Positions 44,618-64,000 of a stretch of DNA of 64,000 nt are shown piece by piece. The notes beneath the pieces were generated by a model that was not told the DNA's origin, made no database searches, and worked only from the letters and a program-made list of their open reading frames with translations. Positions within the stretch are counted from its first letter, which is position 1, and each line of letters opens with the position of its first letter. The stretch comes from Bradyrhizobium sp. NDS-1. Lineage in GTDB: Bacteria; Pseudomonadota; Alphaproteobacteria; Rhizobiales; Xanthobacteraceae. Both the position numbers and the translations under genes were made by a program. The stretch spans positions 2,031,501 to 2,095,500 of the forward strand of contig NZ_CP136628.1 of NCBI RefSeq assembly GCF_032918005.1, given 5' to 3'.

Positions 44618-44620
44618 GAA

Positions 44621-46284: not shown

Positions 46285-46341
46285 CCCGCCTTGCGTCGGC
46301 GCGGCTAGATTCCACCGCATCTCGCTGCCCGGAGGCTCCCG

Positions 46342-46621: not shown

Positions 46622-46657
46622 CGGCCGGCGAACCCAGATGAACGAGGAGGACGCGCC

Positions 46658-47083
46658 GTGTACAAGTTTCTTGAGCAGACCGTCGACGGCTACATGACGC
46701 GCGACGTCCGGATGGTGAAGCGCGATCTCGACCTGCTCGAACTCAGCGAGATGTTCGAGCGCGACGATTTCAACTCCTATCCAGTCGAGGACGACGGGCA
46801 GGTCGTCGGCATCGTCACCAAATTCGACATCCTGAAGGGCTTCGCCCTCACGCCGAGCCAGATGCTGCCGCGCTATCACGATCTGACGAGCCGCAAAGTC
46901 GGTGACGTCATGGCGCCTGAATTCATTTATGTCAGTTCCGACACCAAGTTGACGCGCGTGCTCCAGATCATGGTCGAGCACCGCATCAGGAGCGTCATCG
47001 TGCTCAACAGCCGCCAGAAGCTGGTCGGAATCATCGCCCGTGAGGACGTCATCGCCGCACTCAAGGCGACCGCGCGCGACTGA
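46658..47083 (+). CDS. CBS-domain protein
   Basis: 141 aa with two CBS repeats: VDGYMTRDVRMVKRDLDLLE, PVEDDGQVVGIVTKFDILKG, then VGDVMAPEFIYVSSDTKLTR, IVLNSRQKLVGIIAREDVIA. GTG start at 46658 with AGGAGG. CBS pairs bind adenine nucleotides; a regulatory role beside the cbb3 oxidase is presumed from position. Confidence 0.92.
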   Translation: MYKFLEQTVDGYMTRDVRMVKRDLDLLELSEMFERDDFNSYPVEDDGQVVGIVTKFDILKGFALTPSQMLPRYHDLTSRKVGDVMAPEFIYVSSDTKLTRVLQIMVEHRIRSVIVLNSRQKLVGIIAREDVIAALKATARD

Positions 47084-47220
47084 CAGGCCGTCCGCAAATC
47101 GCTCGACTTGAGCTCCATGATTTCACGCAAGCGGTGGTTACCGCGCGCTGCGAGGAGCGCGAGCGGTTGATATCGCTCTCCGACCAGCGGCTGCTTCACA
47201 TTAACAGAAATTCACTGACC

Positions 47221-47234
47221 TTGATTTCAATCAA
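47221..47234 (+). promoter_or_regulatory. FixK box of fixNOQP
   Basis: Perfect TTGA-TTTCAA-TCAA. Centred at about 47227.5, so with the usual -41.5 spacing transcription would start near 47269. This supports the fixN start at 47293 over the ATG at 47251. Confidence 0.93.
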
Positions 47235-47292
47235 GTCCCCGCGAGGTTGAATGTGGTTTCTGGCGCTGTGTTTCTTTCGAAAGAGAATCCGC

Positions 47293-48942: not shown

Positions 48943-48952
48943 GGAGCTTCCC

Positions 48953-49687
48953 ATGTCGTTCTGGACACGCCACCAAGTCTTCGAAAAGAGCTCGATCATC
49001 CTGGTCGTCGGCATTCTGCTAGTGATCGCGATCGGCGGTCTCGTCGAGATCACGCCGCTGTTCTACCTCAAAAGCACGATCGAGGTAGTCGACGGCATCA
49101 GGCCGTACACGCCGCTGGAGCTGGCGGGCCGCAATGTCTACGTCCGCGAAGGCTGCTATCTCTGTCATTCGCAGATGATCCGGCCGCTGCGTGACGAGGT
49201 CGAGCGCTACGGCCACTTCTCGCTGGCCGCCGAGAGCATGTTCGACCATCCGTTCCAATGGGGCTCGAAGCGCACCGGTCCTGACCTTGCCCGCGTCGGC
49301 GCCAAATATTCCGACGACTGGCACGTCGCCCATCTGACCAATCCGCGCGCGATCGTGCCGCAATCGGTGATGCCGGGCTATCCGTTCTTGGCCCAGACCG
49401 AGGTCGATCCGGACACGATCGCCGACCACATGCGCACCTTAAGGACGGTCGGCGTGCCCTATACCGACGACCAGATCGCCAACGCCGGCGCCGACATGAA
49501 GGCCCAGGCCGATCCGGACAATGCCGGCACCGATGCCTTCAGCAAGCGCTACGCCAAGGCGGTGGTGCGCAATTTCGACGGCAAGACCGGCACGCCGACC
49601 GAGATGGACGCGCTGATCGCATATCTGCAGATGCTCGGCACGCTGGTCGACTTCAAGATCTACAACGAGAAAGCCAATCTTCGCTGA
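48953..49687 (+). CDS. fixO: cbb3-type cytochrome c oxidase subunit II (mono-haem)
   Basis: 244 aa. N-terminal membrane anchor ([20 protein letters not shown]), then a periplasmic domain with one haem c site [20 protein letters not shown] and the axial Met in the [11 protein letters not shown] region. Transfers electrons to FixN. It starts 10 bases after the fixN stop. Confidence 0.97.
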
Positions 49688-49700
49688 GAAGGCATCACCG

Positions 49701-49865
49701 ATGAAAGCCATCCTGACACTCGACAATCTCGCCTCCAGTCTCGTCACCACGATCTGGACGCCGGTCTTCGTCGCGATCTTTCTCGCGATCATCACCTACG
49801 CATTCTGGCCCCGCAACAAGGCTGCGTTCGACGAAGCGGCACGCCTGCCGTTGCGGGAGGAGTAA
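49701..49865 (+). CDS. fixQ: cbb3-type oxidase subunit FixQ (CcoQ)
   Basis: 54 aa single-span membrane protein: MKAILTLDNLASSLVTTIWT, PVFVAIFLAIITYAFWPRNK. Stabilises the oxidase complex. Typical FixQ ending of charged residues (DEAARLPLREE). Between fixO and fixP with 13- and 6-base gaps. Confidence 0.96.
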   Translation: MKAILTLDNLASSLVTTIWTPVFVAIFLAIITYAFWPRNKAAFDEAARLPLREE

Positions 49866-49871
49866 GAGATC

Positions 49872-50747
49872 ATGACCGATCATCATGGCGACATCGATTC
49901 CGTCTCCGGCAGGTCCACGACCGGGCACGAGTGGGACGGCATCAAGGAGCTCAACACGCCGCTGCCGCGCTGGTGGGTGATTACGTTCTACCTCACCATC
50001 GTCTGGGCGATCGGCTACTGGATCGTCTATCCGGCCTGGCCGCTGATCTCCAGCAATACCACAGGACTGTTCGGCTACTCGACACGCGCCGACGTCGCGG
50101 TCGAGCTCGCCAATCTCGAGAAGATCCGCGGAGCCAAGATGGTGGCGCTGGGCGCGGCCTCGCTCGCCGACATCGAGAAGGATCCCGCCTTGCTGGCGCT
50201 CGCCCGGGCCAAGGGCAAGACCGTGTTCGGCGACAATTGCGCGCCGTGTCACGGCAGCGGCGGCGCCGGCGCCAAGGGCTATCCGAACCTGAACGACGAC
50301 GACTGGCTGTGGGGCGGTACGCTCGACCAGATCATGCAGACCATCCAGTTCGGCGCGCGCTCCGGCCACGCCAAGGCGCATGAAGGCCAGATGCTCGCTT
50401 TCGGCAAGGACGGCGTGCTGAAGTCGGACGAGGTCGTCACGGTTGCCAACTACGTGCGGTCCTTGTCGGACCTCCCGACCCGGAAGGGCTATGACGCCGC
50501 CAAGGGCGAGAAGATCTTCGCAGACAATTGCGTCGCCTGTCACGGCGACGGCGGCAAGGGCAACCCGGAGATGGGCGCGCCCAACCTGACCGATAAGATC
50601 TGGCTCTACGGTTCCGACGAGGCAACCCTGATCGAGACCATCAGCCAGGGCCGCGCCGGCGTCATGCCGGCCTGGGAAGGGCGGCTTGATCCTTCCACCA
50701 TCAAGGCCATGGCGGTCTACGTCCACTCGCTGGGCGGCGGAAAATAG
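49872..50747 (+). CDS. fixP: cbb3-type cytochrome c oxidase subunit III (di-haem)
   Basis: 291 aa. Membrane anchor WWVITFYLTIVWAIGYWIVY, then two cytochrome c domains with haem motifs CAPCHGSGG and CVACHGDGG and axial Met candidates in QMLAFGKDG and GRAGVMPAWEGRL. Accepts electrons for the oxidase. Last gene of fixNOQP, followed by a terminator hairpin. Confidence 0.97.
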   Translation: MTDHHGDIDSVSGRSTTGHEWDGIKELNTPLPRWWVITFYLTIVWAIGYWIVYPAWPLISSNTTGLFGYSTRADVAVELANLEKIRGAKMVALGAASLADIEKDPALLALARAKGKTVFGDNCAPCHGSGGAGAKGYPNLNDDDWLWGGTLDQIMQTIQFGARSGHAKAHEGQMLAFGKDGVLKSDEVVTVANYVRSLSDLPTRKGYDAAKGEKIFADNCVACHGDGGKGNPEMGAPNLTDKIWLYGSDEATLIETISQGRAGVMPAWEGRLDPSTIKAMAVYVHSLGGGK

Positions 50748-50761
50748 TGGATCAGCGAACG

Positions 50762-50790
50762 ACGGGGGCAAACAAAAGTGCCCCCGTTTG
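50762..50790 (+). terminator. terminator after fixP, overlapping the fixG promoter
   Basis: ACGGGGGCA (50762-50770) pairs with TGCCCCCGT (50779-50787) over an 8-base loop, followed by only a short T-run (TTTG). The downstream arm runs directly into the FixK box of fixG. Confidence 0.65.
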
Positions 50791-50801
50791 AGCAGGATCA
50801 A
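50788..50801 (+). promoter_or_regulatory. FixK box of fixGHIS
   Basis: Perfect TTGA-GCAGGA-TCAA, starting one base after the terminator stem of fixP and 70 bases before the fixG ATG. Confidence 0.92.
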
Positions 50802-50857
50802 CTGACGCGGCGGCGCCGGGTCTAGGTTTAATCGCACCTCTCGAGACAAATTTCGCG

Positions 50858-52324
50858 ATGAACAAGCCCGTGAACCCGAACGACCTCACATCGGACGACG
50901 ACTACGGGCCGCTCTACGCAACCCACAAGAAGGTGTATCCCCAGAGCATCTCCGGCACCTTCCGCCGGATCAAATGGGGCCTGATGGCGCTCTGCCTCGG
51001 TGTCTACTACGTCCTGCCTTTCGTGCGCTGGAACCGCGGCCTCGGTGCTCCCAGCCAGGCGGTGCTGATCGACCTTCCCAACAGCCGCTTCTATTTCTTC
51101 TTCATCGAGCTGTGGCCGCAGGAGGTCTATTACTTCACCGGCCTCTTGATCGTCGCCGCGGTGGCGCTGTTCCTGATGAACTCGGTTGGCGGCCGCATCT
51201 GGTGCGGCTATCTCTGCCCGCAGACGGTGTGGACCGACCTGTTCTATGCTGTCGAGCGGCTGATCGAAGGCGACCGGCGCGAGCGGATGAAGAAGGACAA
51301 GTCGTCCGATCCGATGAAGCTCGAGCGCATCTCCGAGATCGTGCTCAAGCATTCGATCTGGCTCCTGATCGCCTGGTGGACCGGCGGCGCCTGGGTGCTC
51401 TACTTCAACGACGCGCCGACGCTGGTGAAGGAGCTCGTCACCTTCCAGGCGCCGATGATCGCCTATATCTGGATCGGCATCCTGACTGCTACGACCTATG
51501 TGCTCGCCGGCTCCATGCGCGAGCAGGTCTGCACCTATATGTGCCCGTGGCCGCGGATCCAGGCCGCGCTCACCGACGAATGGGCGCTCAACGTCACCTA
51601 CCGCTACGACCGCGGCGAGAAGCGCACTTCGGTCAAGAAGGCTATCGAGCTGCGCGCGCTGGGCGAGCACGCCGGCGACTGCGTCGACTGCTACCAGTGC
51701 GTCGCGGTCTGCCCCACCGGCATCGATATCCGCAACGGGCCGCAGCTCGAATGCATCCAGTGCGGCCTCTGCATCGACGCCTGCGACAACGTGATGACCA
51801 AGATCGGCCGGCCGAAGCGCCTGATCGGCTACGACAACGACATCAACATCCATCGCCGCCAGGAAGGCAAGGCGCCGCTATATCGTGTCGTCCGTCCCCG
51901 CACCGTCGTCTACAGCGCGATTATCGCGGCCGTCGGCGGCTTCATGCTCTACACGTTGGCGACGCGCAGCCTGCTCGACGTCAACGTGCTGCACGACCGC
52001 AATCCGGTCGCGGTCAGGCTCAGCGATGGCTCGATCCGCAACGCCTATACAGTCCGACTCCTGAACAAGAGCGGCTACGAACGCGTCGTCGCGATCGACG
52101 CGGATGGTCCGGTCAACGTGACGATTCATGTCGTCGGCGTGGATTCGGTGACGCCGGACCGGCCGATGATCGTGATCGCCCGCGACTCCACCAGCGAGCT
52201 GCGGCTGCTCGTTACCGCGCCGGCGGACAGCAATCCGGAGAAGTCGACCCCCGTTCGCTTCCACGTCACCGATATCGGGCTCGGCGAGGTCGCCTCCGCC
52301 ACCGATAATTTTGTCGCTCCTTGA
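50858..52324 (+). CDS. fixG: cbb3 oxidase assembly protein FixG (ferredoxin-like, CcoG)
   Basis: 488 aa. Five or so membrane helices (ALFLMNSVGGRIWCGYLCPQ, SIWLLIAWWTGGAWVLYF), a 2x[4Fe-4S] ferredoxin domain with CVDCYQCVAVCPTGIDIRNG and CIQCGLCIDACDNVMTK, a further TM and a C-terminal periplasmic Ig-like domain. CcoG reduces Cu(II) for oxidase maturation. First gene of fixGHIS. Confidence 0.96.
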   Translation: MNKPVNPNDLTSDDDYGPLYATHKKVYPQSISGTFRRIKWGLMALCLGVYYVLPFVRWNRGLGAPSQAVLIDLPNSRFYFFFIELWPQEVYYFTGLLIVAAVALFLMNSVGGRIWCGYLCPQTVWTDLFYAVERLIEGDRRERMKKDKSSDPMKLERISEIVLKHSIWLLIAWWTGGAWVLYFNDAPTLVKELVTFQAPMIAYIWIGILTATTYVLAGSMREQVCTYMCPWPRIQAALTDEWALNVTYRYDRGEKRTSVKKAIELRALGEHAGDCVDCYQCVAVCPTGIDIRNGPQLECIQCGLCIDACDNVMTKIGRPKRLIGYDNDINIHRRQEGKAPLYRVVRPRTVVYSAIIAAVGGFMLYTLATRSLLDVNVLHDRNPVAVRLSDGSIRNAYTVRLLNKSGYERVVAIDADGPVNVTIHVVGVDSVTPDRPMIVIARDSTSELRLLVTAPADSNPEKSTPVRFHVTDIGLGEVASATDNFVAP

Positions 52325-52342
52325 GAAAGTCCGGAGTTCGCC

Positions 52343-52834
52343 ATGGCATCCGCACCGAAGCCGCTGACCGGAACGAAGGTGTTCCTGATGCTGGTCGCCT
52401 TTTTCGGCGTCGTGATCGGCGTCAACGTGACCATGGCGAAGCTCGCGATCGCGACGCTGCCCGGGACCGACGTCGACAGCCCTTACGCTGCGGGTCTCGC
52501 CTATGACCGCGAGATCTCGGCGGCGCAGGACCAGGCCGCGCGCAAATGGCGGGTCAACGCCCATATCGAGCGGCGCGCCGATGGCGGCGCCGTGCTTCAG
52601 GTCGAAGCGCGCGATGCGAGCGGCCAGCCGATCGCCGGACTGAAATTCGGCGGCCGCCTGGAGCGGCCGACCGACAAGCGCGCCGATCTCGCGGTCGAAC
52701 TCTCCCAGGCCGGCGTCGGCATCTATCGCGGCAGCGTTGCTTCCGTCGCGCCGGGCCAGTGGGATCTCGTGATCGAGGGCGACGCGCGGGGCGAGCGTGT
52801 GTTCATGTCGCGCAACCGCGCGATCCTGAATTGA
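52343..52834 (+). CDS. fixH: cbb3 oxidase maturation protein FixH
   Basis: 163 aa. One N-terminal membrane helix (FLMLVAFFGVVIGVNVTMAK) and a periplasmic FixH domain (SPYAAGLAYDREISAAQDQA, WDLVIEGDARGERVFMSRNR). Needed for assembly of the oxidase. It follows fixG by 18 bases. Confidence 0.95.
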   Translation: MASAPKPLTGTKVFLMLVAFFGVVIGVNVTMAKLAIATLPGTDVDSPYAAGLAYDREISAAQDQAARKWRVNAHIERRADGGAVLQVEARDASGQPIAGLKFGGRLERPTDKRADLAVELSQAGVGIYRGSVASVAPGQWDLVIEGDARGERVFMSRNRAILN

Positions 52835-52845
52835 GAGAACACGCC

Positions 52846-55035
52846 ATGCAGATGACGCGGGATTTTTCCCACTATGTCCGGGCTGCGGGCGAAGGCCTCC
52901 AGCACATCGATCTCGCCGTCGAAGGCGTGCATTGCGCCGGGTGCATGGCGAAGATCGAGCGCGGGCTGTCCGCCATTCCCGACGTCACGCTGGCGCGCGT
53001 GAATCTCACCGACCGGCGCGTCGCGCTGGAATGGAAGCAGGGCACGCTCGATCCGGCCCGCTTCATCGATCGGCTCGAAGAGCTCGGCTACAAGGCCTAC
53101 CCTTACGAGACCGAGAGCGCGGAGGCGACCGAGGTCGCCGAATCGCGCTTCCTGCTGCGCTGCCTCGGCGTCGCCGCGTTCGCCACCATGAACGTGATGA
53201 TGCTGTCGATCCCGGTGTGGTCCGGCAATGTCTCGGACATGCTGCCGGAGCAGCGCGATTTCTTCCACTGGTTGTCGGCGCTGATCGCGCTGCCGGCGGC
53301 GGTCTATGCCGGCCAGCCGTTCTTCCGCTCGGCCTGGCGCGCGCTGTCGGCCAAGACCACCAACATGGACGTGCCGATCTCGATCGGCGTGTGCCTTGCG
53401 CTGGGCATGTCCGTGGTCGAGACTATCAACCACGCCGAGCACGCCTATTTCGACGCGGCGATCATGCTGCTGACTTTCCTCCTGGTTGGGCGCTTCCTCG
53501 ACCAGAACATGCGGCGGCGGACCCGCGCGGTCGCCGGCAATCTCGCCGCGCTCAAGGCTGAGACCGCGGCCAAGTTCGTCGGCCCCGATGAAATCTCGCA
53601 GGTGCCGGTCGCCGCGATTCATCCCGGCGACATCGTGCTCTTGCGGCCCGGCGAGCGCTGCGCCGTCGACGGCACCGTAATCGAGGGGCATTCCGAGATC
53701 GATCAAAGCCTGATCACCGGCGAGACGCTCTATGTCACGGCCGAGCACGACACGCCGGTCTATGCCGGCTCCATGAACATCTCCGGCACGCTGCGGGTGC
53801 GGGTCTCGGCGGCCTCCGAAGCGACGCTGCTCGCCGAGATCACGCGGCTACTCGACAACGCGCTCCAGGCGCGCTCGCGCTACATGCGGCTCGCCGACCG
53901 CGCCTCGCGGCTCTATGCGCCGGTGGTGCATGCGACCGCGCTGATCACCATTTTGGGCTGGGTCATTGCGGGCGCAAGCTGGCATGATGCGATCGTTACC
54001 GGCGTTGCAGTGCTGATCATCACCTGTCCTTGCGCGCTCGGGCTTGCGATTCCGACGGTGCAGACGATCGCCTCGGGCGCGATGTTCAAGTCCGGCGTGT
54101 TGCTCAATTCGGGCGATGCCATCGAACGCCTCGCCGAAGTCGACCATGTCATCTTCGACAAGACCGGCACGCTGACGCTGCCGGATCTCGAAGTCACGAA
54201 CGCGGCCGATATTCCGGCAGATATCCTCGATCTCGCCGGCCGGCTCGCGTTGTCGAGCCATCATCCTGTCGCAGCTGCGGTGGCGCAGGCTGCGGGTGCC
54301 AAATCGCCCATCCTCAGTGCGGTCGAAGAGGCCGGGCAGGGCGTGCGTGCTGTGGTCGATGATGTCGAAATCCGACTCGGCCGTCCGTCTTTCTGCGGTG
54401 CCGAGGCATTGGTCAGTGGCACCGATCTCGATCCAGAGGCGTCCGTCGTGGTCTTCAGCAAGGGCGGCGAAAAGTTCATCCTCTCCGTGCGCCAGGGCCT
54501 GCGTCCGGATGCGCAAGCGGTGATCGCGGCGCTGAAGGCGCGCAACATCGGCATCGAGATCCTGTCCGGCGATCGCGAACCGGCGGTGAGGGCGGCGGCC
54601 GACGCCCTCGGCATTCCCGAGTGGTGCGCCGGCGTCACCCCTGCCGACAAGATCGCGCGGATCGAGGAGTTGAAGCAGCGGGGCGCAAAAGTGCTGATGG
54701 TTGGCGACGGCATGAACGATGCGCCCTCGCTTGCGGCAGCTCACGTCTCGATGTCGCCGATCTCGGGCGCGCATCTCAGCCAGGCGACCGCCGATCTGGT
54801 CTTCCTCGGCCGGCCGTTGGCTCCGGTCGTCGCGGCGATCGACTCTTCGTGCCAGGCGCTGCGCCTGATGCGGCAAAACCTTTGGCTTGCGATCGGCTAT
54901 AACGTCCTGGCGGTGCCGGTCGCGATCAGCGGCGTGGTGACGCCCCTGATTGCGGCGGCGGCCATGAGCGGATCGTCAGTCCTGGTCATGCTAAATTCGC
55001 TGCGCGCACGCAGCACTTCGCGGGGGATCGCGTGA
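52846..55035 (+). CDS. fixI: cation (copper) transporting P1B-type ATPase FixI
   Basis: 729 aa from ATG 52846; the open frame further 5' overlaps fixH. N-terminal HMA domain with LAVEGVHCAGCMAKIERGLS, six to eight membrane helices, the ion site AVLIITCPCALGLAIPTVQT, the phosphorylation motif VIFDKTGTLTLPDLEV, and the hinge VLMVGDGMNDAPSLAAA. Supplies copper for the binuclear centre of FixN (CcoI role). Stop TGA overlaps the fixS ATG by one base. Confidence 0.97.
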   Translation: MQMTRDFSHYVRAAGEGLQHIDLAVEGVHCAGCMAKIERGLSAIPDVTLARVNLTDRRVALEWKQGTLDPARFIDRLEELGYKAYPYETESAEATEVAESRFLLRCLGVAAFATMNVMMLSIPVWSGNVSDMLPEQRDFFHWLSALIALPAAVYAGQPFFRSAWRALSAKTTNMDVPISIGVCLALGMSVVETINHAEHAYFDAAIMLLTFLLVGRFLDQNMRRRTRAVAGNLAALKAETAAKFVGPDEISQVPVAAIHPGDIVLLRPGERCAVDGTVIEGHSEIDQSLITGETLYVTAEHDTPVYAGSMNISGTLRVRVSAASEATLLAEITRLLDNALQARSRYMRLADRASRLYAPVVHATALITILGWVIAGASWHDAIVTGVAVLIITCPCALGLAIPTVQTIASGAMFKSGVLLNSGDAIERLAEVDHVIFDKTGTLTLPDLEVTNAADIPADILDLAGRLALSSHHPVAAAVAQAAGAKSPILSAVEEAGQGVRAVVDDVEIRLGRPSFCGAEALVSGTDLDPEASVVVFSKGGEKFILSVRQGLRPDAQAVIAALKARNIGIEILSGDREPAVRAAADALGIPEWCAGVTPADKIARIEELKQRGAKVLMVGDGMNDAPSLAAAHVSMSPISGAHLSQATADLVFLGRPLAPVVAAIDSSCQALRLMRQNLWLAIGYNVLAVPVAISGVVTPLIAAAAMSGSSVLVMLNSLRARSTSRGIA

Positions 55036-55196
55036 TGGAAATTCTGCTGATCCTAGTTCCGCTGATGCTGGCACTCGGAGGTGCCGGTCTCATCGCCTTC
55101 CTCTGGTCGCTCCGGAGTGGCCAGTATGACGATCTCGAGGGCGCAGCGTGGCGGGCCGTCGGCGAGGACCGGCCGCCGAAGGAGGCGCAGGGTTAG
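55035..55196 (+). CDS. fixS: cbb3 oxidase assembly protein FixS
   Basis: 53 aa single-span protein: MEILLILVPLMLALGGAGLI, AFLWSLRSGQYDDLEGAAWR with the conserved FLWSLRSGQYDDLEG of CcoS. Required for cofactor insertion into the oxidase. Last gene of fixGHIS; an IS remnant begins ten bases later. Confidence 0.95.
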   Translation: MEILLILVPLMLALGGAGLIAFLWSLRSGQYDDLEGAAWRAVGEDRPPKEAQG

Positions 55197-55205
55197 GGCT
55201 AGGTG

Positions 55206-55365
55206 TGGTCTTTCCAGAGGTTGTCCATCTGGTATGAACCGAGCAAGCTGAGGTTGCGAAGCTTCAGTGTTCCAAGAGAGACCAGATGAAAGTCCAGAAG
55301 GCGCCTTTGACGCCCACCGAGAGGCGATGGTGCGGAGTGTCGTCCAGGGCGGGCTTACGGAAGCG
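55206..55365 (+). mobile_element. IS481-type remnant, left copy
   Basis: The stretch TTGTCCATCTGGT..GAACCGAG..AAGCTGAGGTTGCGAAG up to GAGACCAGATGAA, followed by the 5' transposase codons GCGCCTTTGACGCCCA and GAGAGGCGATGGTGCG, recurs at 63093-63262 in the same orientation. Only the IS end and about 30 codons of the transposase are left; the frame is already shifted. Confidence 0.8.
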
Positions 55366-55782
55366 CGCGATGAAATCCGATGCGAGATTGGCGGCCTTGC
55401 GCTGCGTCAAGTTGAAGATCATCGCCAAGTCGTCGTCGTCCGCGAGATTCCAGTACCAGATGTACTGCACGTAGTTCCGTAGCCGCCATAACTGAAGTTC
55501 TCGTGGGGTCACGAAAGGCTGCTGTCCATTTATCCAGGCGCGGTATTCGTAGTCGGCCAGACCGCCGAGCCGTTCCTCGACGTAGGCCTGCAGGATCGCC
55601 TGCCGATCTCCTTTGCCCGCGTTCGGAAATTTCTTCGACGTACAGTAAGCGTGGCATTCGGCAGGAATGGCGCGGGCGACAGTCACGAGCACGTTCGGCA
55701 TGTAGACCAGATCGGTCGGTATCTTCACTTCGAAGTACGCTTCGTAGTCGGTAGGAACGGTGACCGCCTTCGCCATCGACAA
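55264..55782 (-). CDS. hypothetical protein whose 3' end runs into the IS remnant
   Basis: 172 aa. Native-looking residues 1-140: MSMAKAVTVPTDYEAYFEVK, LVYMPNVLVTVARAIPAECH, RLGGLADYEYRAWINGQQPF, YVQYIWYWNLADDDDLAMIF, NLTQRKAANLASDFIARFRK. The last 30 residues (PALDDTPHHRLSVGVKGAFW and on) are the reverse strand of the IS481 transposase start, so the original C terminus was lost. LTQRKAANLASDFIARF may be a helix-turn-helix. No family recognised. Confidence 0.6.
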   Translation of the reverse strand: MSMAKAVTVPTDYEAYFEVKIPTDLVYMPNVLVTVARAIPAECHAYCTSKKFPNAGKGDRQAILQAYVEERLGGLADYEYRAWINGQQPFVTPRELQLWRLRNYVQYIWYWNLADDDDLAMIFNLTQRKAANLASDFIARFRKPALDDTPHHRLSVGVKGAFWTFIWSLLEH

Positions 55783-56656
55783 TTCTCGTGTCCCCTGAGC
55801 AACTCGGAGTCGCTACTACGCCCCTATAGGATACAACGAGAGAATGCAACGCCGCGAGAGATGTAGAAGCGTTTCTCGTTTGAAATGCGTCGATTAGTCC
55901 GCCCATCGAGCGTCACATCGATGCCGCAAAAGGCCCGTGTCCCGGATGACACGCTGGCGGCGGGGTCCACAGGGGCACGGCCGAGACGCTACTCAGATAG
56001 TGTTCAATGCTGGGAGTGTTGGCGCGCTGCGATTTCGTTGCGGCGTTCTCAGAGAAAAAACTGGCTCGCCGGTGAGCTTCTCGGCAGCCAAACGTGGGTT
56101 TATGCTGCGCTCGGATTCTTAGCGATTTCAGAGGCTTGCAAGGCCGAGCTGCACAGTAAAGCGCATTTCGGGACCGCCTGTGCTCTTCAGCTTGGCCAGG
56201 TTTCAAAACCATCAAGGGGAGCCCAGTTGCAGATGTGTTTGCAGACAGCCTGTGACCTTCAGGTTATGAGCCCCGTCACAAGGCGCAAAAAGCCCAATCT
56301 TTTCAATCTTCAAGCGGGCGCTTCGTGCCAGTTCTGTGCCGTGGAGAGAACAGCTACGGCTGGTAATTATTGTGAGTCCTTCCCGCGGGCTTGGGCCGCG
56401 AAGAGGTGGATACATAAGAGTGATCAAAGGCGGGGCCGATCCCTTGCCGTCGGAGTTGCCAACTGTCCTAGCTGACTCCTTCTGCGAAGCACCGATCTGG
56501 AAGAATTTTCTAATCGCATACGCCGTTATGTTGCCCCGCAGCCACGATCGCCTCCGCTGGAATACGGAGTGAAGCATACCCTTAGTTATCAACTGCGAAT
56601 TGTTTACTTCCAAGTTTCGCGTCCATAGTATCTGTGCGGGGTTTGGGGGACGACCA
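55783..56656. other. low-coding stretch upstream of the four-gene operon
   Basis: About 870 bases. Frames on both strands (a 196-codon plus frame from 55885 and a 133-codon minus frame to 56212) lack natural composition and starts. GC is lower than in the core. It should contain the promoter of the operon, but I see no clear elements. Confidence 0.45.
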
Positions 56657-57796
56657 GTGTCGCGGTTGAGTAAGCTTGCAGTTGAGAGAGAGATTATATC
56701 GGCGAGCCCTAAGGGGCAGACTCCGCCTTCGCTGACGCTGATAAAGTCCGTCAGCGAAACGATCGCGCAGCTTCCATCGACGAGATACTATGGGAGCAAG
56801 CGAAAATTGCTCCCGTGGATATACGATCACGTCCGAACCCTTGAGTTCGACACCGTCTTGGATGCACTCGGTGGTACGGCGTCTGTCTCGCTACTTTTCA
56901 AAGCAATGCGTAAGACAGTCACGTATCATGACGGGTTCCGATTCAACTTGGACATCGCAAGCACGTTGCTTTCCAATCAGACTGCGATGACCCGAGACGA
57001 TGTATTCCAATTCCTTGACAACGTTACTCCTGTTTCCGGCGTCGTATCGAGATCATTCCGCGGGATATATTACAAGAACAGAGAGAATAGCTGGATTGAC
57101 GGCTTTGTGGCTTCGCTTCAACGATCAGACCTGTCGCGAGCACAGACCGCGCTTCTCCGCTATCTTCTGTATCAAGCATGCCTAAAGAAGCGCCCATTTA
57201 ATCTCTTTCATCGGTCCAACTTACACCTCCGGACCAACAAAGGGGTAAGTCGATCTTTCGGCAATCACGTAACATGGGAGCGTAGCTTTCAGCATCACAT
57301 CATGCAGGCTTACGACGAACTGCCAAGCGGCCTCAGAACGCACGCACAATGCGTTGTCATGCAGTCTGGCAACGTCGAGCGCATCAAGCCGGGCTACGAC
57401 CTCGTTTACATCGATCCGCCCTACGTAAGCGAGATCTCGCGTTACAATCGAGACGATTATTGGCGTCGCTATCACTTCTTGGAAGGCTTAGCGAACTACA
57501 GCACTTGGGAGCAGCGGATCGATACGGCTTCGGACATTCGACTACTGCGTCGCCCCAAATGGATGCTCGACTGGGCGACGAAAGCCACTTTCGCGGAACG
57601 TCTATTTGCTTTCATCAGCACGCACAAACAGTCCCAGGTCGTCCTGTCGTATGTGACGAAAGCGTGTCCCGGCGAACGCGAAATTACGCGTTTCTTTGAA
57701 GACACATTCGCGAATGTCTCGATTCACTCACGGGAGCACAGCCACGCGCTTGGCGCTACTCCCAGACGAGAACTACTATTCATAGGACGACCATGA
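56657..57796 (+). CDS. DNA adenine methyltransferase, D12 class
   Basis: 379 aa from a GTG at 56657 with GGGGGA upstream; the frame stays open to a TTG at 56600. The SAM-binding region is LPSTRYYGSKRKLLPWIYDH followed by FDTVLDALGGTASVSLLFKA, and the catalytic motif IV is DLVYIDPPYVSEISRYNRDD, DPPY being diagnostic for N6-adenine methylation. The order motif I before IV and the 379-aa size fit the D12 (alpha) class such as M.DpnII-type enzymes; recognition sequence unknown. No restriction endonuclease is adjacent. First gene of a four-gene coupled operon; stop overlaps the next ATG by four bases. Confidence 0.9.
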   Translation: MSRLSKLAVEREIISASPKGQTPPSLTLIKSVSETIAQLPSTRYYGSKRKLLPWIYDHVRTLEFDTVLDALGGTASVSLLFKAMRKTVTYHDGFRFNLDIASTLLSNQTAMTRDDVFQFLDNVTPVSGVVSRSFRGIYYKNRENSWIDGFVASLQRSDLSRAQTALLRYLLYQACLKKRPFNLFHRSNLHLRTNKGVSRSFGNHVTWERSFQHHIMQAYDELPSGLRTHAQCVVMQSGNVERIKPGYDLVYIDPPYVSEISRYNRDDYWRRYHFLEGLANYSTWEQRIDTASDIRLLRRPKWMLDWATKATFAERLFAFISTHKQSQVVLSYVTKACPGEREITRFFEDTFANVSIHSREHSHALGATPRRELLFIGRP

Positions 57797-58512
57797 CCAT
57801 ATTTGAGGCCCGAAATACTTCAATACCGACATGGCTTTTGATTGTCCTGATGGTGGCGATCGTCACATCGGGTAGCGCAGTCTATTACTTCCTTTATCTA
57901 GATCCGAACGACGCTAAGTTGATTGGCCTCGTTGGCGGCGTCATTTCAGGCGGCCTCGTCTTTCTTCTTACTTACATTGTATCAGCTCAACCCCTTCGAG
58001 ATTTGGCTCGCTATGAGCAAATGGGAATTCGCGGTGTACTGGCCAGCCGCCATGACAAAGCCTATTATGCTGTGCTCGTGTCGAAGGCACGACGATCCGT
58101 CCAGGTGATGGGCGCCTCTTGCACAAGATTCGTCGAGGACTTCTTAGACTTACAGAGTGAAGACCACGCACTTGTAGATGCGCTTCGGCGCAATCAAACA
58201 CTGTATGTTCAGCTCCTCATCCCAGACGACGAACACATCGCCGAGAGCAGCACGCCTCGATTACCTGGATTGTTTCACAAGCTCGAGGCACTTAAACCGG
58301 AGTTCGGCGAACGGATCGAGCTGCGCCGCTTTCGTGCAAAGGCCCAGCACAGCTTCATGAGCGTCGACGACGACCTGGTTGCTGGGCCCATCTTTCAGGA
58401 CAACGAAAGCAAATACGCTCCTGCTGTGCACGTAGCGATGTCAACGCGGTTCGCTCAGAAGTACTATGATCACTTTGAAACGGTCTGGAATGCCTGTGAA
58501 CCAACTGGCTGA
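57793..58512 (+). CDS. two-TM membrane protein with PLD-like domain
   Basis: 239 aa. Hydrophobic helices at about 13-34 (TWLLIVLMVAIVTSGSAVYY) and 42-64 (IGLVGGVISGGLVFLLTYIV), then a cytosolic domain of some 170 residues: KARRSVQVMGASCTRFVEDF, LYVQLLIPDDEHIAESSTPR, AKAQHSFMSVDDDLVAGPIF. The layout (an opening strand GASC, a second-half H-x-F-x4-D) resembles phospholipase D-like folds, but only one half-motif is evident and it is not a canonical HKD. It starts inside the methyltransferase stop (ATGA). Confidence 0.68.
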   Translation: MTIFEARNTSIPTWLLIVLMVAIVTSGSAVYYFLYLDPNDAKLIGLVGGVISGGLVFLLTYIVSAQPLRDLARYEQMGIRGVLASRHDKAYYAVLVSKARRSVQVMGASCTRFVEDFLDLQSEDHALVDALRRNQTLYVQLLIPDDEHIAESSTPRLPGLFHKLEALKPEFGERIELRRFRAKAQHSFMSVDDDLVAGPIFQDNESKYAPAVHVAMSTRFAQKYYDHFETVWNACEPTG

Positions 58513-59485
58513 GGCAAGCATCGTCGCGTCCGCTCGTATCCATTTGGGCCTGATCTCGATGCATGCAGGAGGCCCCAGAATGAATGGCGGCATCGGATTC
58601 GCCATCGTGAATCCGATCGCGAACGTCAACGCTAAATTAAATTATCGCTTCACAATTAGAGACTCACGACCTATTCCACTCCTTGAGCACGAACTCGATG
58701 AGCTGATCCGTGATGTCGAGGTCGTTCGACTCGAAAATGGCCTTAGGCCAGCAACGATCACCATCTTCGGCCCCATTCGAAGTCACGTGGGTATGGGATC
58801 GGGCACAGCAATCAGGCTTGCCATCCTGGAAGCTCTATTTGCGCTGAACGGGCAGTCGCCCGCTGATAAAGCTCTTGTTGCAAATTCGAAGAGAGGGGGC
58901 ACTTCTGGCGTCGGAGTGACGTCTTACTTCAGCGGAGGGATGATCTTAGATTTGGGCCGCCCCACCGACGGCAGCCTTCCTACGCCGTCGTCGCAATCGA
59001 ATAGGCCGGTCTCCGCCGCAACTATCCTTCCTACTTTGAGAATGCCGGACTGGCCACTCTGCGTCTGTATTCCTGAGCGTATACGAGCAAAGACACAGCG
59101 AGAGGAGGTGGAGTTCTTCGAGCGCGTCCTTCCGCTGGCTATCCAGGATAGCTACCGCACCTGCTACGAGGCAGTCTTCGGAATCTACGCTGCGGTCAAA
59201 GACCACGACTATCAAGCGTTTTGCCGCGCTGTAACCTCAATCCAGACGACGACTTGGAAGGCGCTGGAGTGGAACGAATATGGCGGCGCTCTGCAGCGGC
59301 TGAAGGGGCAAGTGGAGCGCTTTGGCGTTGATTGTGTCGGAATGTCCAGCTTGGGACCATCCCTTTTCTGCTTTGCGACGCCCCAAACACTAGATCGCTT
59401 AGTCGAGGCCCAATTATCCTTGAATTGCGAGATCTACAAAACGCGCCCAAATAACAGCGGGCGCGTACTGCGGCTTTTGCCATGA
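58490..59485 (+). CDS. GHMP-superfamily protein, beta-RFAP synthase-like
   Basis: 331 aa from ATG 58490 (an ATG at 58466 is in frame); it overlaps the PLD-like gene by about 23 bases. Motifs: SARIHLGLISMHAGGPRMNG followed by GIGFAIVNP; the GHMP phosphate loop PIRSHVGMGSGTAIRLAILE (about 95-114); and SKRGGTSGVGVTSYFSGGMI (about 133-152), which closely follows the R-G-x-x-S-G-I-G pattern of beta-ribofuranosylaminobenzene 5'-phosphate synthase. That archaeal/methylotroph enzyme joins PRPP to 4-hydroxybenzoate (or 4-aminobenzoate) with loss of CO2, forming a C-riboside for methanopterin. No other methanopterin gene is visible here, so the substrate may differ. Very unusual in this setting. Confidence 0.75.
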   Translation: MPVNQLAEASIVASARIHLGLISMHAGGPRMNGGIGFAIVNPIANVNAKLNYRFTIRDSRPIPLLEHELDELIRDVEVVRLENGLRPATITIFGPIRSHVGMGSGTAIRLAILEALFALNGQSPADKALVANSKRGGTSGVGVTSYFSGGMILDLGRPTDGSLPTPSSQSNRPVSAATILPTLRMPDWPLCVCIPERIRAKTQREEVEFFERVLPLAIQDSYRTCYEAVFGIYAAVKDHDYQAFCRAVTSIQTTTWKALEWNEYGGALQRLKGQVERFGVDCVGMSSLGPSLFCFATPQTLDRLVEAQLSLNCEIYKTRPNNSGRVLRLLP

Positions 59486-61113
59486 AAGAACTGACTTTCT
59501 TTACATCGAACTCAACGAAATTGGCTCATGCACGTTACATCGCCGAGAGATACCCGGTACGCATTAAGGGCTTCCGGCAACGCACCTACCACGCAAATTA
59601 CGATGAACCCCGGTTAGCATCGAGAGCAGATCTATTGGAGGCAAGTTATCGCAGTGCACTCCGTCAGTGCACAAAAGCAGGCCTCTCGACCGACAACCAT
59701 CCATTCATTCTTGAAGATACATCCGTAAAGATCGATGCACTCAGCCGGGACGGAGGCGAGGTACCTGGCGTTGAGATCAAATACTGGATGGAAGGGCAGA
59801 CATTCTCCAATCTCGAAGCAATGCTACTTTCAGGCGGGAACAATAGATCGGCGACGGTGCGTTCAGATCTTCTTCTGCATATTCCGAAGCACTACAAAGC
59901 TATCTGGCAGATCAAGAGCGACTATTTGACGTTTGTGGGTACGCAACAGGGACATGTTGCGGGATCGGAGTTCATTTTTGAGACCAATCTAGTCTATCCT
60001 TGGCTAGACAATCGATCTTTCAACAAATGGTTCGTCCCAAGCGGTCACGCACTTCCCTTCGGAGCCCTACCGATTAGCGATGCCGATCGTGTTGACTTCA
60101 GACGCAAGGCTTTCGCACAACTCTTCGACTTCCTAATTGAGCGGCGCTATCTATCCTCCGAGCCGAAGCAACTTGAATTTGGCCTCGACCGTAAGCCCAA
60201 CTTGGTCATGTCAGGCTTCACCTGTGCTGGCAAAACCACCGCCAGCCAGCACCTCGCTCGAAAGTTTGGCTATCTACACGTTGAGGCGAGCGATTTCATG
60301 TATCTGAATTACTATTATCGACACGGCTATCGTGGTGACATTTCGATAGGCGATTTCGCCGAAGACGCTCTAGCTCAGAAACCCGAGATCGCCGCAGAGA
60401 GAGTCGCGGAATATATCGCAGACAAGGGAAGCGGGCCGGTAATCATATCCGGCTTTCGTTCCCCCGGAGAAATTGACTACCTCAGCGACGCCATGAACGT
60501 ACTGGGAAAGGCAATCCGCATAGTCTTCGTTGAATCCAACGAAGCCGCCCGATACAAACGCCTTGCTGCGCGTGGGCGACCTGGAGATGATATATCCCTA
60601 GATGCGTTTAGACGACGCGATGAACAACAACGCCGAATGGGCCTCGAAGAGATCGCCAAGTCCGCAGGTGCGATGACTCTTAGCAATGAGGCTAGCCTGC
60701 CCGAATATCTCGAAGCCATCGATGTTCTCGCCGGGCCGGATCTGCCGGACGATATTATCGTTGCGAGCGCGCTCGCCCGACTCGTCGACGTAAAAGAGGT
60801 CAAATTGGAGGACGCCATTTTAATCGCTCTTCTGGGCGCTTGGACCAGCGAGGAGAGTCGGCCTTTCTTTTCTACCACGCAGATTGCCCGGAGAATTCAG
60901 GCGACATTTTTGAATGCCCCGCCAAAGCATAAAGACAACGTTAGCCGTTACTTCAATCAGGATTTCTATGCGTATTACGAGATTGCCGGCGAACAATCCG
61001 ACGCCAAACGTCGTTACCGGCTTTCGAACACCGGTTACGGCATGGCTATTCGCTCGTTAAGGACTTTGTTGAGAGCCAGCCAAAACCTTTCGCGTCCTGC
61101 AGAGCCGCTTTAG
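59482..61113 (+). CDS. Ham1/ITPase-like + P-loop kinase + winged-helix fusion protein
   Basis: 543 aa. Residues 1-200 resemble non-canonical purine NTP pyrophosphatases (RdgB/Ham1): FFTSNSTKLAHARYIAERYP and FILEDTSVKIDALSRDGGEV with PGVEIKYWM, the counterparts of the T/S-x-N-x-x-K opening and the EDSGLxxDAL-PGxxxxR site. Residues 238-410 form a nucleotide-kinase-like P-loop domain with Walker A LVMSGFTCAGKTTASQHLAR (Lys251), a P-x-I-I-S-G-F-R strand and a basic helix; 440-535 look like a winged helix (LEDAILIALLGAWTSEESRP, STTQIARRIQATFLNAPPKH). The start overlaps the preceding stop (ATGA). Nucleotide cleansing or salvage plus regulation is inference. Confidence 0.72.
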   Translation: MKELTFFTSNSTKLAHARYIAERYPVRIKGFRQRTYHANYDEPRLASRADLLEASYRSALRQCTKAGLSTDNHPFILEDTSVKIDALSRDGGEVPGVEIKYWMEGQTFSNLEAMLLSGGNNRSATVRSDLLLHIPKHYKAIWQIKSDYLTFVGTQQGHVAGSEFIFETNLVYPWLDNRSFNKWFVPSGHALPFGALPISDADRVDFRRKAFAQLFDFLIERRYLSSEPKQLEFGLDRKPNLVMSGFTCAGKTTASQHLARKFGYLHVEASDFMYLNYYYRHGYRGDISIGDFAEDALAQKPEIAAERVAEYIADKGSGPVIISGFRSPGEIDYLSDAMNVLGKAIRIVFVESNEAARYKRLAARGRPGDDISLDAFRRRDEQQRRMGLEEIAKSAGAMTLSNEASLPEYLEAIDVLAGPDLPDDIIVASALARLVDVKEVKLEDAILIALLGAWTSEESRPFFSTTQIARRIQATFLNAPPKHKDNVSRYFNQDFYAYYEIAGEQSDAKRRYRLSNTGYGMAIRSLRTLLRASQNLSRPAEPL

Positions 61114-61383
61114 CTTCAGATTTCGGCCAGCAGATTTAACCGAGCATCTCGGCCGGGATTGCGTCCATGGCCTTCTGATCGTCCGACTTGAATAAGTGAT
61201 CGGTCGCGGCTCGTTTGCGGGCCACCTCTCGCTGGCTTCGGATTGACACGATTTGCGGGAATGAAAGCGCATAGGGCAATGAGTACCGTTGCCCACAGTG
61301 ACACGGTCCCCAATCGGGTGTATTCCGAACCCACCACCAGAAAGCCGCGCGATAGCTCGCCACTAGGCGTACTTTTTTTCTGC

Positions 61384-61539
61384 TCAGTCTGCCAAGGTGT
61401 TCTTCTGGTCAACCGCAACTGCGGCTGCCCAGCTGAAGTCATAATGAGTGCCCAACAACTTCATTGTGACAACAGCGACAAGAACGCAGATGATCTTCAA
61501 CAACGTTCTGCTCGAGAACACTCTATTGAAGCGCGTCAT
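61384..61539 (-). CDS. small predicted membrane/exported protein (51 aa)
   Basis: MTRFNRVFSSRTLLKIICVL, VAVVTMKLLGTHYDFSWAAA, VAVDQKNTLAD. One hydrophobic stretch after a basic N terminus, like a signal anchor. An AAGG stands about 11 bases upstream. No homologue recalled; support is composition and start only. Confidence 0.42.
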   Translation of the reverse strand: MTRFNRVFSSRTLLKIICVLVAVVTMKLLGTHYDFSWAAAVAVDQKNTLAD

Positions 61540-61550
61540 GATGCCGCCTT

Positions 61551-61751
61551 CTAGCGCTGATGACCGAGCCGGATTCCAAGCTTGAGCGCCTTTTGGCGGA
61601 GTGAGCCTTCGGAGCGCTTTGTGAGCTTCGCAATATTCGCAACCGGAGTCTTCGCTTTCGAATGAGCGCGCAGCTCCTTCACGTCAGCCTTCGTGTATTC
61701 ACGACGCACAGGTTTCTTTTTCGTAGCCGTCTTCTTTGCCTTTTTCGCCAC
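61551..61751 (-). CDS. small lysine-rich basic protein
   Basis: 66 aa: MAKKAKKTATKKKPVRREYT, KADVKELRAHSKAKTPVANI, AKLTKRSEGSLRQKALKLGI. An N-terminal Lys/Ala tail followed by a helix-turn-helix-like segment with RxEGxxRQKAxxLGI. This type is widespread in rhizobia; probably binds nucleic acid, function unknown. Confidence 0.75.
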   Translation of the reverse strand: MAKKAKKTATKKKPVRREYTKADVKELRAHSKAKTPVANIAKLTKRSEGSLRQKALKLGIRLGHQR

Positions 61752-61897
61752 TCTTAGCTCCTCGATTCGAGAGTGGGCGTACTAGCACAGCTACATTGAG
61801 GCGCAACTCTCCATCAGTTGACCTTATCCGCTGGTCCGATGCGTGAACTCGCTCATGATGTCAGTTTTGCCGGCGATTTGATGACGGAGAGATTCGG

Positions 61898-62791
61898 TCT
61901 GTGCCCGAAGTTCAAGCACGCATTAATGCGCTGCTGGCGGCGGGTATGTCCGAGATGCTTCGAAAGCGGATGTGGGATCTGCTCGTCGTCGACGAGGCGC
62001 ATGACTGCCGGAACGCGGACCGTCTTCGATTCCGCTTCGTCTACTCGCTGCGGGCCCGGCGTCGCGTATTCCTCACCGCCACGCCGATCCATAATAGCGG
62101 CTATGATATGTTCAATCTCGCTACGTTGCTGAAACCGGGTTATCTCGGCCAGCGTCGCTTCTTCGCCGAGAAGCACATGGCCGGCGACCGCATCATCAAG
62201 GACAACGACGTTCTTCAACGACGTTTGGCGCCCTTGATGGCTCGGAGCCTTCGTCGCGAGACCGATATCCTGTTCGCAAAGACAATTGACCAATGGATCA
62301 TTGCGAACGGCACCTCGGAAGAAGCCAAGCAGCAGATCTGGGGACCCAGGAAGAATTGCCAAAACCAACGAGTCTACGTTGGGGCTCGGGCGAACCATAA
62401 CGGAAAGGACGAAGATGTTCTTGCTCTCGAACCTCAATATCGGGCGCGCCCGCTGGATGGTGTTTGGGCGACAGCTCCGTATCTGCACAACGGGTCTGTG
62501 CCGACGCTAAGAGACATGTTGTTGCCGCAGAAGGAACGGCCGATGTCCTTCTGCGTTGGCAGTCGCGAATTCGATCCAGTCAATGTCGGGCTTGTCACGA
62601 AAACTCAAGCGAGCGACGCCTGTGCGGCCGGTCTGACGGAATTCAGTGTCTCGCTGCTTGGGAACGGCAATCGTGGACATTCGTTTGAAGGCAAGGAAAC
62701 CGACTTAACGAAGCTGCCGCCTGGTGTCATCGGGCCAGAATTGACCGACGCCGAGCGGCGCGCACTTGTCGAGTATCTCAAGACGCTGTGA
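61898..62791 (+). pseudogene. chimeric ORF: SNF2/DEAH helicase fragment fused to a cytochrome c fragment
   Basis: One open frame of about 296 codons. Its first 125 codons are part of a helicase: VPEVQARINALLAAGMSEML, MWDLLVVDEAHDCRNADRLR (DEAH box), RRVFLTATPIHNSGYDMFNL (motif III TATP). The later part, from about 62330, is the C terminus of a di-haem cytochrome c peroxidase-like protein: RARPLDGVWATAPYLHNGSV, REFDPVNVG, GPELTDAERRALVEYLKTL. No Walker A, no CxxCH. Two truncated genes joined at about 62,285; no start signals. Read as debris rather than a working protein. Confidence 0.75.
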
Positions 62792-63092
62792 GAGGTCCGT
62801 TGCCTGCACGTGGAAAGTCAATCGAGACCTTTCGAATTGTCGAAGCCGTTGGCCCATCTCGTCCATACGAGCAGCTCTTCCCTCGGTCGCTTCTCATGTA
62901 TTCCCCTGAGGTGGGTCAAGCGCCCTTGCATATCACAGATTGTCGCGAAGGAATGTGGAACCAGCTTTCGAAGCATCATTCTTCTTGCCGAACTGCCACG
63001 CGACTTGCACGCGACGCGATGTTCATAATTACAAGGTGGCGTTTCTGTCCGACCTGACCGGCCCGGATATGGGCTACGGAGCGCTCTAGCTT
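62792..63092. other. gene-free stretch before the right IS remnant
   Basis: About 300 bases, no convincing reading frame on either strand. Confidence 0.45.
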
Positions 63093-63660
63093 TGGTCTCT
63101 CAGGAGGTTGTCCATCTGGTCTGAACCGAGGAAGCTGAGGTTGCGAAGCTTCAGTATTCCATGGTGAGACCAGATGAACGTCCACAAGAATGCGCCTTTG
63201 ACGCCCAAAGGTCGAGAGGCGATGGTGCGAGACGAGGTCGAGGGCGGGCTGAGGCAGGCTGACGCGGCAAATTAGTTCAGCACGACACCGAAAACCTTGG
63301 CCACATGGGTCAAGCGGTTCCGAGCAGAAGGCGTGGATGGCTTTGCGCGACCGCTCGTCGCGACCTCATTCATCGCCGAGCCAAACCCCGCCGGCCACGT
63401 GCGCTGCCGTCGAGACGTTGCACCGACAGCGCCACTCCGGTAATCAGATTGATGCCGAGATCGAGGTGTCACCGGCCACCATCAGCCGTATCTTTCGCCG
63501 CTTGGGATTAGGCCGGATACGCGATCTGGAGCCCGCCGAGCCGGTGCGCCGCTACGAGCGCGAGCACCCCGGCGAGCTCATCCATATGGACATCAAGAAG
63601 CTCGGCAGTTTCGTAAGACCAGGCCACCGCATCACACACGAAGCAAATGGGCTGCTCACG
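63093..63660 (+). mobile_element. IS481-type remnant, right copy
   Basis: Begins with the same end sequence as 55206-55365 and continues through a transposase start at 63174 (MNVHKNAPLTPKGREAMVRD) that is soon stopped by a shift. Later frames show KFRAEGVD-like, SSRPHSSPSQTPPATCAAVE, SGNQIDAEIEVSPATISRIF, RRLGLGRIRDLEPAEPVRRY, HPGELIHMDIKKLGSFVRPG, typical of IS481 helix-turn-helix and the start of the DDE core. It breaks off near 63655. Confidence 0.85.
63174..63660 (+). pseudogene. IS481-family transposase, frameshifted and 3'-truncated
   Basis: Reading requires at least two frame changes (an early stop near 63272, resumption around 63337). The DDE catalytic core is present only to its first Asp (HMDIKK). 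Not functional. Confidence 0.82.
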
Positions 63661-63943
63661 ATCCAGAGACGAGGCCTCGGCAAGACGAACATCTATGAAC
63701 TGTATCTCACGGAGACTTCCCGGACAAAAATGTCCGGTCCAGAAAGGTACGTTAGGTCCGATATGGCGCAGACAAAAATGTCCGCTCCTCAATTAATGAG
63801 ACCTGATGAATGAGATCCATATTGAGAATAAGCAATAAGGGAAGGTACTTTCGCAATAAAGGGAAGGCTCCAACAGGCGGCGCGTATAGCTCAATGCTAG
63901 GTTTGATCGAGTCTCCCAAACTCCAAATTCGGGGAAAGCGCGC
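63661..63943. other. mosaic of short element ends
   Basis: ACAAAAATGTCCG occurs twice (63724-63736 and 63772-63784), which suggests ends of other insertion sequences. No gene seen. GC is low. Confidence 0.45.
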
Positions 63944-64000
63944 ATGACGCCGGAACAGTTCCAAACACTATACCCTCACTTAATCGGTTGGATTCATCAA
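63944..64000 (+). CDS. hypothetical protein, 5' part only
   Basis: Nineteen codons are visible at the window edge: MTPEQFQTLYPHLIGWIHQ, with GGGGAAA nine bases upstream of the ATG. The opening is protein-like; family cannot be fixed from this much sequence. Confidence 0.45.
   Translation, partial: MTPEQFQTLYPHLIGWIHQ

Follow-up and report, generated by a model that had tools for sequence, protein, structure and literature searches.

A mobile gene cassette in Bradyrhizobium sp. NDS-1 combining a C-nucleotide synthase-like enzyme, a membrane pseudo-PLD protein and a Ham1-kinase fusion, with a possible role in anti-phage defence

Gene organization of the cassette

We analysed a 64,000-bp stretch of the Bradyrhizobium sp. 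NDS-1 genome (NZ_CP136628.1, positions 2,031,501 to 2,095,500; hereafter the window, whose own numbering is used below), which carries a cassette of about 4.5 kb that looks like an undescribed system travelling between distant bacteria. Inspection of the open reading frames (ORFs) confirmed four genes on the plus strand, encoding, in order, a D12-class adenine methylase, a membrane protein with the fold of phospholipase D (PLD) but without its catalytic motif (pseudo-PLD), an enzyme of the GHMP fold, and a fusion of Ham1, kinase and predicted winged-helix domains, designated HAMK (Table 1). Successive genes overlapped by 4 bp (ATGA), 23 bp (counted from the ATG at 58490) and 4 bp (ATGA), the second overlap becoming 47 bp if the GHMP gene starts at the upstream ATG at 58466. 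A preliminary description of this DNA had given the same layout and regarded the genes as one translational unit, a view that our analysis supports; gene order and overlaps recur in distant bacteria (see below). As had also been noticed there, the G+C content was low, 0.51–0.55 in the 1-kb bins of the cassette versus 0.60–0.67 across the 12 kb upstream (44000–55999).

Table 1. Features of the cassette in the window
Feature	Position	Strand	Basis or remark
D12-class adenine-N6 DNA methyltransferase, accessory	56657..57796	+	GTG start at 56657, alternative TTG at 56600; PF02086
Membrane-anchored pseudo-PLD protein, core	57793..58512	+	Structure model, PLD fold without HKD
GHMP-fold enzyme of the beta-RFAP synthase/ForT family, core, predicted user of PRPP	58490..59485	+	TIGR00144, 6yqq profile match, residues
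Ham1-kinase-winged-helix fusion (HAMK), whole gene	59482..61113	+	
Ham1/ITPase domain of HAMK, residues 1–224	59482..60153	+	
AdkA-like nucleoside monophosphate (NMP) kinase domain of HAMK, residues 238–420, core	60193..60741	+	
Predicted winged helix (residues ~427–537) and end of HAMK	60760..61113	+	Predicted secondary structure

Predicted properties of the encoded proteins

The GHMP enzyme matched GHMP_kinases_N (E = 1.7e-5) and scored 131 bits against TIGR00144 (beta_RFAP_syn), above the cutoff of 113.5, and the profile of the family matched the complex of ForT with phosphoribosyl pyrophosphate (PRPP), 6yqq, with an E value of 3.7e-43. An excerpt of PMC8183095 lists R19, H99, T106, R135 and S139 of ForT as PRPP contacts, which aligned with R15, H98, T105, R134 and S138 of the cassette enzyme. 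In an alignment of 35 rows, corresponding to 33 distinct places since two rows are duplicates, R15, R134 and S138 were invariant, H98 was retained in 33 (Asn in two) and T105 in 33 (Ser in two); the sixth contact, Ser142 of ForT, had no counterpart. From these residues the enzyme is predicted to use PRPP. Although it shares with the ForT/MptG family the fold, a score over the TIGR00144 cutoff and most PRPP contacts, it differs as follows: 1) in a tree rooted at the midpoint only, a branch supported at 100/100 had all cassette rows to one side, apart from other RFAP synthases, 2) Lys256 was present in 35/35 cassette rows versus 0/17 other rows, and 3) its 152.5 bits did not reach the RFAP synthase equivalog cutoff of NF040726 (328). 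The earlier suggestion of a C-riboside-forming enzyme thus holds as far as most PRPP contacts are concerned, but the enzyme stands apart from the known synthases. Within the cassette side of the tree, a supported branch separated the divergent row of L067, a contig of the viral collection described below, and both rows of genome G015 from the other 32. Synthesis of methanopterin was rejected, because Mch (PF02289), an enzyme of the tetrahydromethanopterin pathway, was found in none of the four cassette genomes tested, as against 3 of 14 controls; genes for formycin or methanopterin synthesis were not seen next to the cassette.

The membrane protein had no Pfam match at E ≤ 1; one relative among the best 120 of 168 carried PF13091. 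Its structure model consisted of two N-terminal hydrophobic helices (residues 13–35 and 41–76) followed by a PLD fold (79–239), and the best fold matches of the cassette domains included the TrmB sugar-binding domain and the Ham1-fold chain of KomBC. The two-helix membrane anchor distinguishes the membrane protein from TrmB and other PLD folds. Active PLD nucleases carry the HKD motif, HxK(x4)D, but the motif occurred in 0/32 members of an alignment in which the decayed L006 and L020 were retained and the duplicates L001 and L002 left out. The PLD-like nature previously proposed was therefore retained for the fold and dropped for the catalytic motif, and since HKD is lacking, the protein is more likely a sensor or effector than a phospholipase or nuclease.

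The last gene matched Ham1p_like (E = 1.2e-11), AAA_17 and AAA_33, and its Ham1 domain had both the expected fold and a score above the Pfam gathering score; of 7996 candidates scored, 410 proteins reached E ≤ 1e-3 as relatives of HAMK. With the duplicates L001 and L002 left out and the decayed L021 kept, kinase residues G245, C248, G250, K251, R326, E330, R357, R360, R364 and R366 were present in 32/32 rows, and Ham1 residues K13, E42, E78, D79 and R207 in all 31 rows having that domain; judged by these residues, both sites look intact. The base-recognition motif of RdgB is Ser-His-Arg, which was replaced by Asp205-Phe206-Arg207 in 31/31 rows, suggesting that the cassette Ham1 may recognize a different base. 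Each of four genomes tested possessed a separate Ham1 protein with a higher score (188–225 bits versus 48–62 for three cassette copies), and identity of the cassette domain with the housekeeping copy was therefore rejected. The C-terminus, with predicted helices at 427–436, 442–451, 465–475 and 484–493, strands at 499–502 and 511–514, and a helix at 516–537, is predicted to form a winged helix. Fusion to Ham1 and this putative winged helix sets the kinase apart from AdkA-like/UPF0200 kinases, except in genome G230, where it is bare.

The methylase matched Pfam MethyltransfD12 (PF02086, E = 3.1e-11) and PADLOC MTase_II (PDLC03261, E = 6.2e-33), the latter being a likeness to the methyltransferases of type II restriction-modification (R-M). 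The cassette differs from type II R-M in that the methylase is optional and no restriction endonuclease partner was found among the four proteins with Pfam or PADLOC. A simple scan of 23 loci revealed no inverted repeat recurring upstream of the methylase.

Conservation and distribution of the gene set

Scanning a species-genome collection with the HAMK alignment yielded 27 loci, of which L032 (contig beginning inside HAMK) and L034 (28% identity, kinase only) were dropped. The 25 usable loci belonged to Bacteroidota and to alpha-, beta- and gammaproteobacteria, with one bin each labelled Stygiobacter and Chlorobiaceae, two labels that may be wrong. In all 25, the GHMP gene adjoined HAMK on the same strand and the membrane gene was present, as a truncated remnant in L008 and split in L021. 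Since the Bosea copy L008 is truncated inside the membrane gene, it was rejected as a variant. Overlaps, scored with start codons chosen by one ad hoc rule and with duplicates L001 and L002 and decayed L006 left out, were found between GHMP and HAMK genes in 27 of 29 loci, the remaining two having 0 bp, and between membrane and GHMP genes in 26 of 29. Methylase and membrane genes were immediate neighbours in 20 cases and overlapped in 16 of these, 13 of them by exactly 4 bp. The distance matrices of the four proteins were correlated (Mantel r 0.58–0.90; 0/1000 permutations as high for any pair; L001, L002 and the decayed L006, L020 and L021 left out). Four of five plasmid records had all four genes, broken in one of them, and the fifth had an 87-aa remnant (L007). 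Of 59 membrane-protein entries on contigs of at least 6 kb, 22 shared their longest contig, by its length, with a HAMK entry, a weak co-location that was not counted as support; as the comparison covers the best 120 of 168 membrane-protein and the best 120 of 410 HAMK matches, the remaining 37 entries say little.

The methylase was present in 20 of the 25 usable loci, as fragments in L020 and L030 and downstream of HAMK in L023, and was missing from L008, L019, L021, L026 and L033, the contig of L026 starting some 500 bp upstream of the membrane gene. Six sets without it (L019, L033, G015, G074, G230 and L067) retained the membrane protein, GHMP enzyme and kinase, five of them with a full-length HAMK gene; the methylase is therefore an optional accessory. 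In five of the genomes concerned (G015, G074, G230 and those of L019 and L033), the methylase family was absent genome-wide, and its profile (A4) matched cassette loci only in the ten genomes searched. The set of G230 consisted of the pseudo-PLD protein, the GHMP enzyme and a bare kinase of 182 aa. Together with the methylase-less sets, this three-gene form makes the pseudo-PLD protein, the GHMP enzyme and the kinase the common denominator, to which Ham1, the winged helix and the methylase are additions. Of the four-gene set originally described, the conserved unit stood and the methylase as a core member did not.

Three profile searches of 398 Pseudomonadota genomes, to all appearance the same draw each time, gave membrane-protein matches in three genomes (G000, G074 and G230), and the same three had GHMP matches above 300 bits and HAMK matches above 90 bits (the kinase part only in G230, 99 bits). 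GHMP matches were also seen in 17 others at 106–146 bits and in nine at 18–21 bits, and 13 further HAMK matches at 18–33 bits were all partial. Excluding the genome of the window leaves 2/397, a small number with complete agreement among strong matches; such surveys score few first-look candidates per genome, and absences hold at that sensitivity. HAMK occurred among 60 near relatives in the window's genome and G015 only, and the membrane protein, within the phylum of L017 (296 genomes), only in that locus's own genome. Since so few of the surveyed genomes had matches, the family is rare and patchy. The preliminary description had held that a set conserved in unrelated islands would speak for a system, and families found apart or overlaps lost in relatives against one; instead of the latter, the membrane and GHMP genes accompanied HAMK in every usable locus, strong matches coincided in the same genomes, and overlaps were kept.

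Carriage as phage cargo was rejected, since no HAMK match was found in 50,697 phage records or in viral contigs, and the GHMP profile recovered from the viral collection a single contig, L067 (IMG/VR, 35 kb), bearing a divergent methylase-less set.

Mobility and genomic neighbours

The cassette moves as a unit. Megablast comparison of a Rhizobium plasmid (L003) with Mesorhizobium (L013) revealed one similar block (84%), extending from 64 bp upstream of the methylase to 4 bp downstream of HAMK. Two Rhizobium plasmids, L003 and L004, had common flanks, in which the cassettes lay in opposite orientation; these cassettes gave no megablast match to each other, their HAMK proteins being 60% identical. 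The horizontal transfer proposed earlier is upheld by both comparisons. HAMK copies of Bosea (truncated) and Methylobacterium were 94% identical, and among ten loci scanned, a tRNA-Met gene was located about 150 bp before the set of G074.

Besides the fix region of the window (52500–55191), the NDS-1 genome has a second copy, 87% identical, at 5.88 Mb. A conspecific genome (G215) had a single fix region, 87% identical to that of the window. It gave nothing comparable to 55192–56600 or 61000–64000, where matches did not exceed about 170 bp (69%), and profiles of the GHMP enzyme, HAMK and the membrane protein had no match in it; no clean empty insertion site was found. It was also noticed that the cassette region lies between two direct repeats, each about 160 bp long and 83% identical to the other (55199–55355 and 63086–63250), with a third, partial match (about 70 bp) at about 2.27 Mb; the repeat is possibly a remnant of an island or insertion element. 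An ORF at 61901–62791 fuses an SNF2-helicase fragment with a RoxA-like cytochrome c fragment and looks like rearranged gene debris next to the cassette.

Among the flanking genes compared, ABC-transporter ATPases were the commonest family (five loci); six families occurred in three loci each, one of them including the Fic gene of L011 and another being the additional small gene described next, and the rest in pairs. No family occurred in more than five loci, and no pathway gene recurred. A fifth gene of 164–182 aa lay directly upstream of the membrane gene in L017 (6800–7294), L023 (6770–7318) and L029 (6775–7299), between methylase and membrane genes in L017 and L029, and had no convincing Pfam match. 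A 1051-aa gene before the G015 set (UvrB domains) and a 913-aa gene before the G074 set (Calx-beta/PKD domains) were taken as neighbours rather than parts of variants.

Several neighbours were of defence type. About 1.3 kb from the three-gene set of G230 lay a homologue of anti-phage-type dCTP deaminase (L065:5197–7023; PADLOC dCTPase, E = 6.4e-136). In L029 (2885–11745), a type I restriction gene ended 6 bp before the methylase, and the cassette was followed by a relative of the type I methyltransferase found downstream of the cassette in L028; the set of L067 was flanked by two unrelated DNA methyltransferases and a NUDIX protein, and this locus also gave a PDC-S07 match. With weaker matches in L004, L013, L021 and L022, there were 10 matches among 30 hand-picked proteins, a count made without a control set, and ordinary neighbours (ABC transporters, alkyl sulfatase, ribonucleotide reductase and type VI secretion) were seen too.

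Comparison with known systems

Kongming comprises KomA, a deaminase, KomB, with a Ham1 fold, and KomC, a SIR2 NADase. It is the nearest analogue, a Ham1-fold protein being common to both. In Kongming, a non-canonical nucleotide is the immune signal, dITP binding KomB and thereby activating KomC (excerpts of PMC12948488 and PMC12774641). The cassette is not Kongming: neither SIR2 (at E ≤ 1) nor a deaminase was found in its four proteins with Pfam and PADLOC, its Ham1 is fused to a kinase, and a GHMP/RFAP synthase-family enzyme and a membrane pseudo-PLD protein occupy the place of SIR2 and the KomA-type deaminase. PADLOC-DB 2.0.0 (2023) gave no system-specific match; confident matches were to the generic MTase_II only, and JetB (0.0064), VakA (0.021), oMTase (0.026) and Cas8f (0.046) matched weakly. 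The initial impression that the set corresponds to no known system agrees with our search, in which it was not found described in the open-licence literature or PADLOC-DB 2.0.0; it could have been described more recently or in closed sources.

Possible function

We propose, with a probability of about 40%, that the cassette is a mobile, self-contained nucleotide-chemistry unit signalling via a C-nucleotide, most likely against phages. The GHMP enzyme would join PRPP to an aromatic or heterocyclic carboxylate that is common in cells to give a C-ribonucleotide 5'-monophosphate, which the AdkA-like kinase domain would phosphorylate, host kinases perhaps completing the triphosphate. The membrane-anchored pseudo-PLD protein might bind the resulting nucleotide, with its membrane helices acting as effector to damage or arrest the infected cell, and the Ham1 domain could either cleave the triphosphate as an off-switch or bind it, as KomB does dITP. 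The winged helix and the optional methylase may link the system to DNA, perhaps allowing unmethylated DNA to be told from methylated self. We favour nucleotide signalling to a membrane effector because the cassette would encode a chain from PRPP to phosphorylated nucleotide, a Ham1 domain of a kind able to cleave or bind triphosphates, and a membrane protein whose non-catalytic domain has a ligand-binding fold in other proteins, as the TrmB match illustrates, and because Kongming offers a precedent. Service in defence of some kind, which we consider somewhat more probable than not, is suggested by mobility, patchiness, decay and some of the neighbours; the C-nucleotide mechanism in the form proposed is tentative.

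It is rather improbable that the product is instead an antimetabolite. Prokaryotic viperins are the comparison here: the GHMP enzyme and kinase would make a C-nucleotide triphosphate that blocks phage polymerases, and Ham1 would protect the host. The kinship of the GHMP enzyme to a C-nucleotide synthase with conserved PRPP residues fits this, as do the intact kinase and Ham1 residues and, from an excerpt of PMC5940212, the resistance to nucleotide analogues conferred on yeast by HAM1 overexpression. However, it leaves unexplained the membrane pseudo-PLD protein of every usable set, and the set of G230 lacks Ham1, though a housekeeping Ham1 is encoded elsewhere in that genome.

We give similarly low odds to a biosynthetic or regulatory island outside defence, making a small ribosyl compound such as a cofactor, signal or antibiotic nucleoside. 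The closest characterized relatives of the GHMP enzyme do make precursors of methanopterin and formycin, but the rare, patchy and mobile distribution with decayed copies, the lack of a recurring pathway gene in the flanks, where ABC-transporter ATPases do occur in five loci, and the absence of Mch from the four cassette genomes tested speak against such an island.

Still less probable is a restriction-like or DNA-modifying system, in which the methylase would mark self while its partners either act against unmodified DNA or produce a hypermodified base. The frequency of the methylase, the predicted winged helix and the type I R-M genes adjoining L028 and L029 point in this direction; nevertheless, R-M as the core function was rejected, because five genomes keep the other genes without the methylase family and neither Pfam nor PADLOC revealed a nuclease domain in the cassette, the pseudo-PLD proteins being likewise devoid of HKD. 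Finally, that the genes are chance neighbours in one island, for which only the rarity of the set speaks, has a negligible probability given the order and overlaps conserved in distant bacteria, the coincidence of strong matches in the same genomes, the matrix correlation and the transfer as a unit.

Implications

If the C-nucleotide signalling proposed above is true, its product would be the first immune signal in which the glycosidic bond is carbon-carbon; that a C-nucleotide alarm read by a membrane pseudo-PLD protein and switched off by Ham1 represents a new class of immunity is unlikely on present odds. The accessory parts are present in some natural variants and missing from others, among them the three-gene form with a bare kinase. 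Should the chemistry be right, a C-nucleotide synthase would be used outside cofactor and antibiotic pathways, immune or stress signalling would include a chemically new kind of nucleotide, and the family would be a source of C-nucleotide enzymes.

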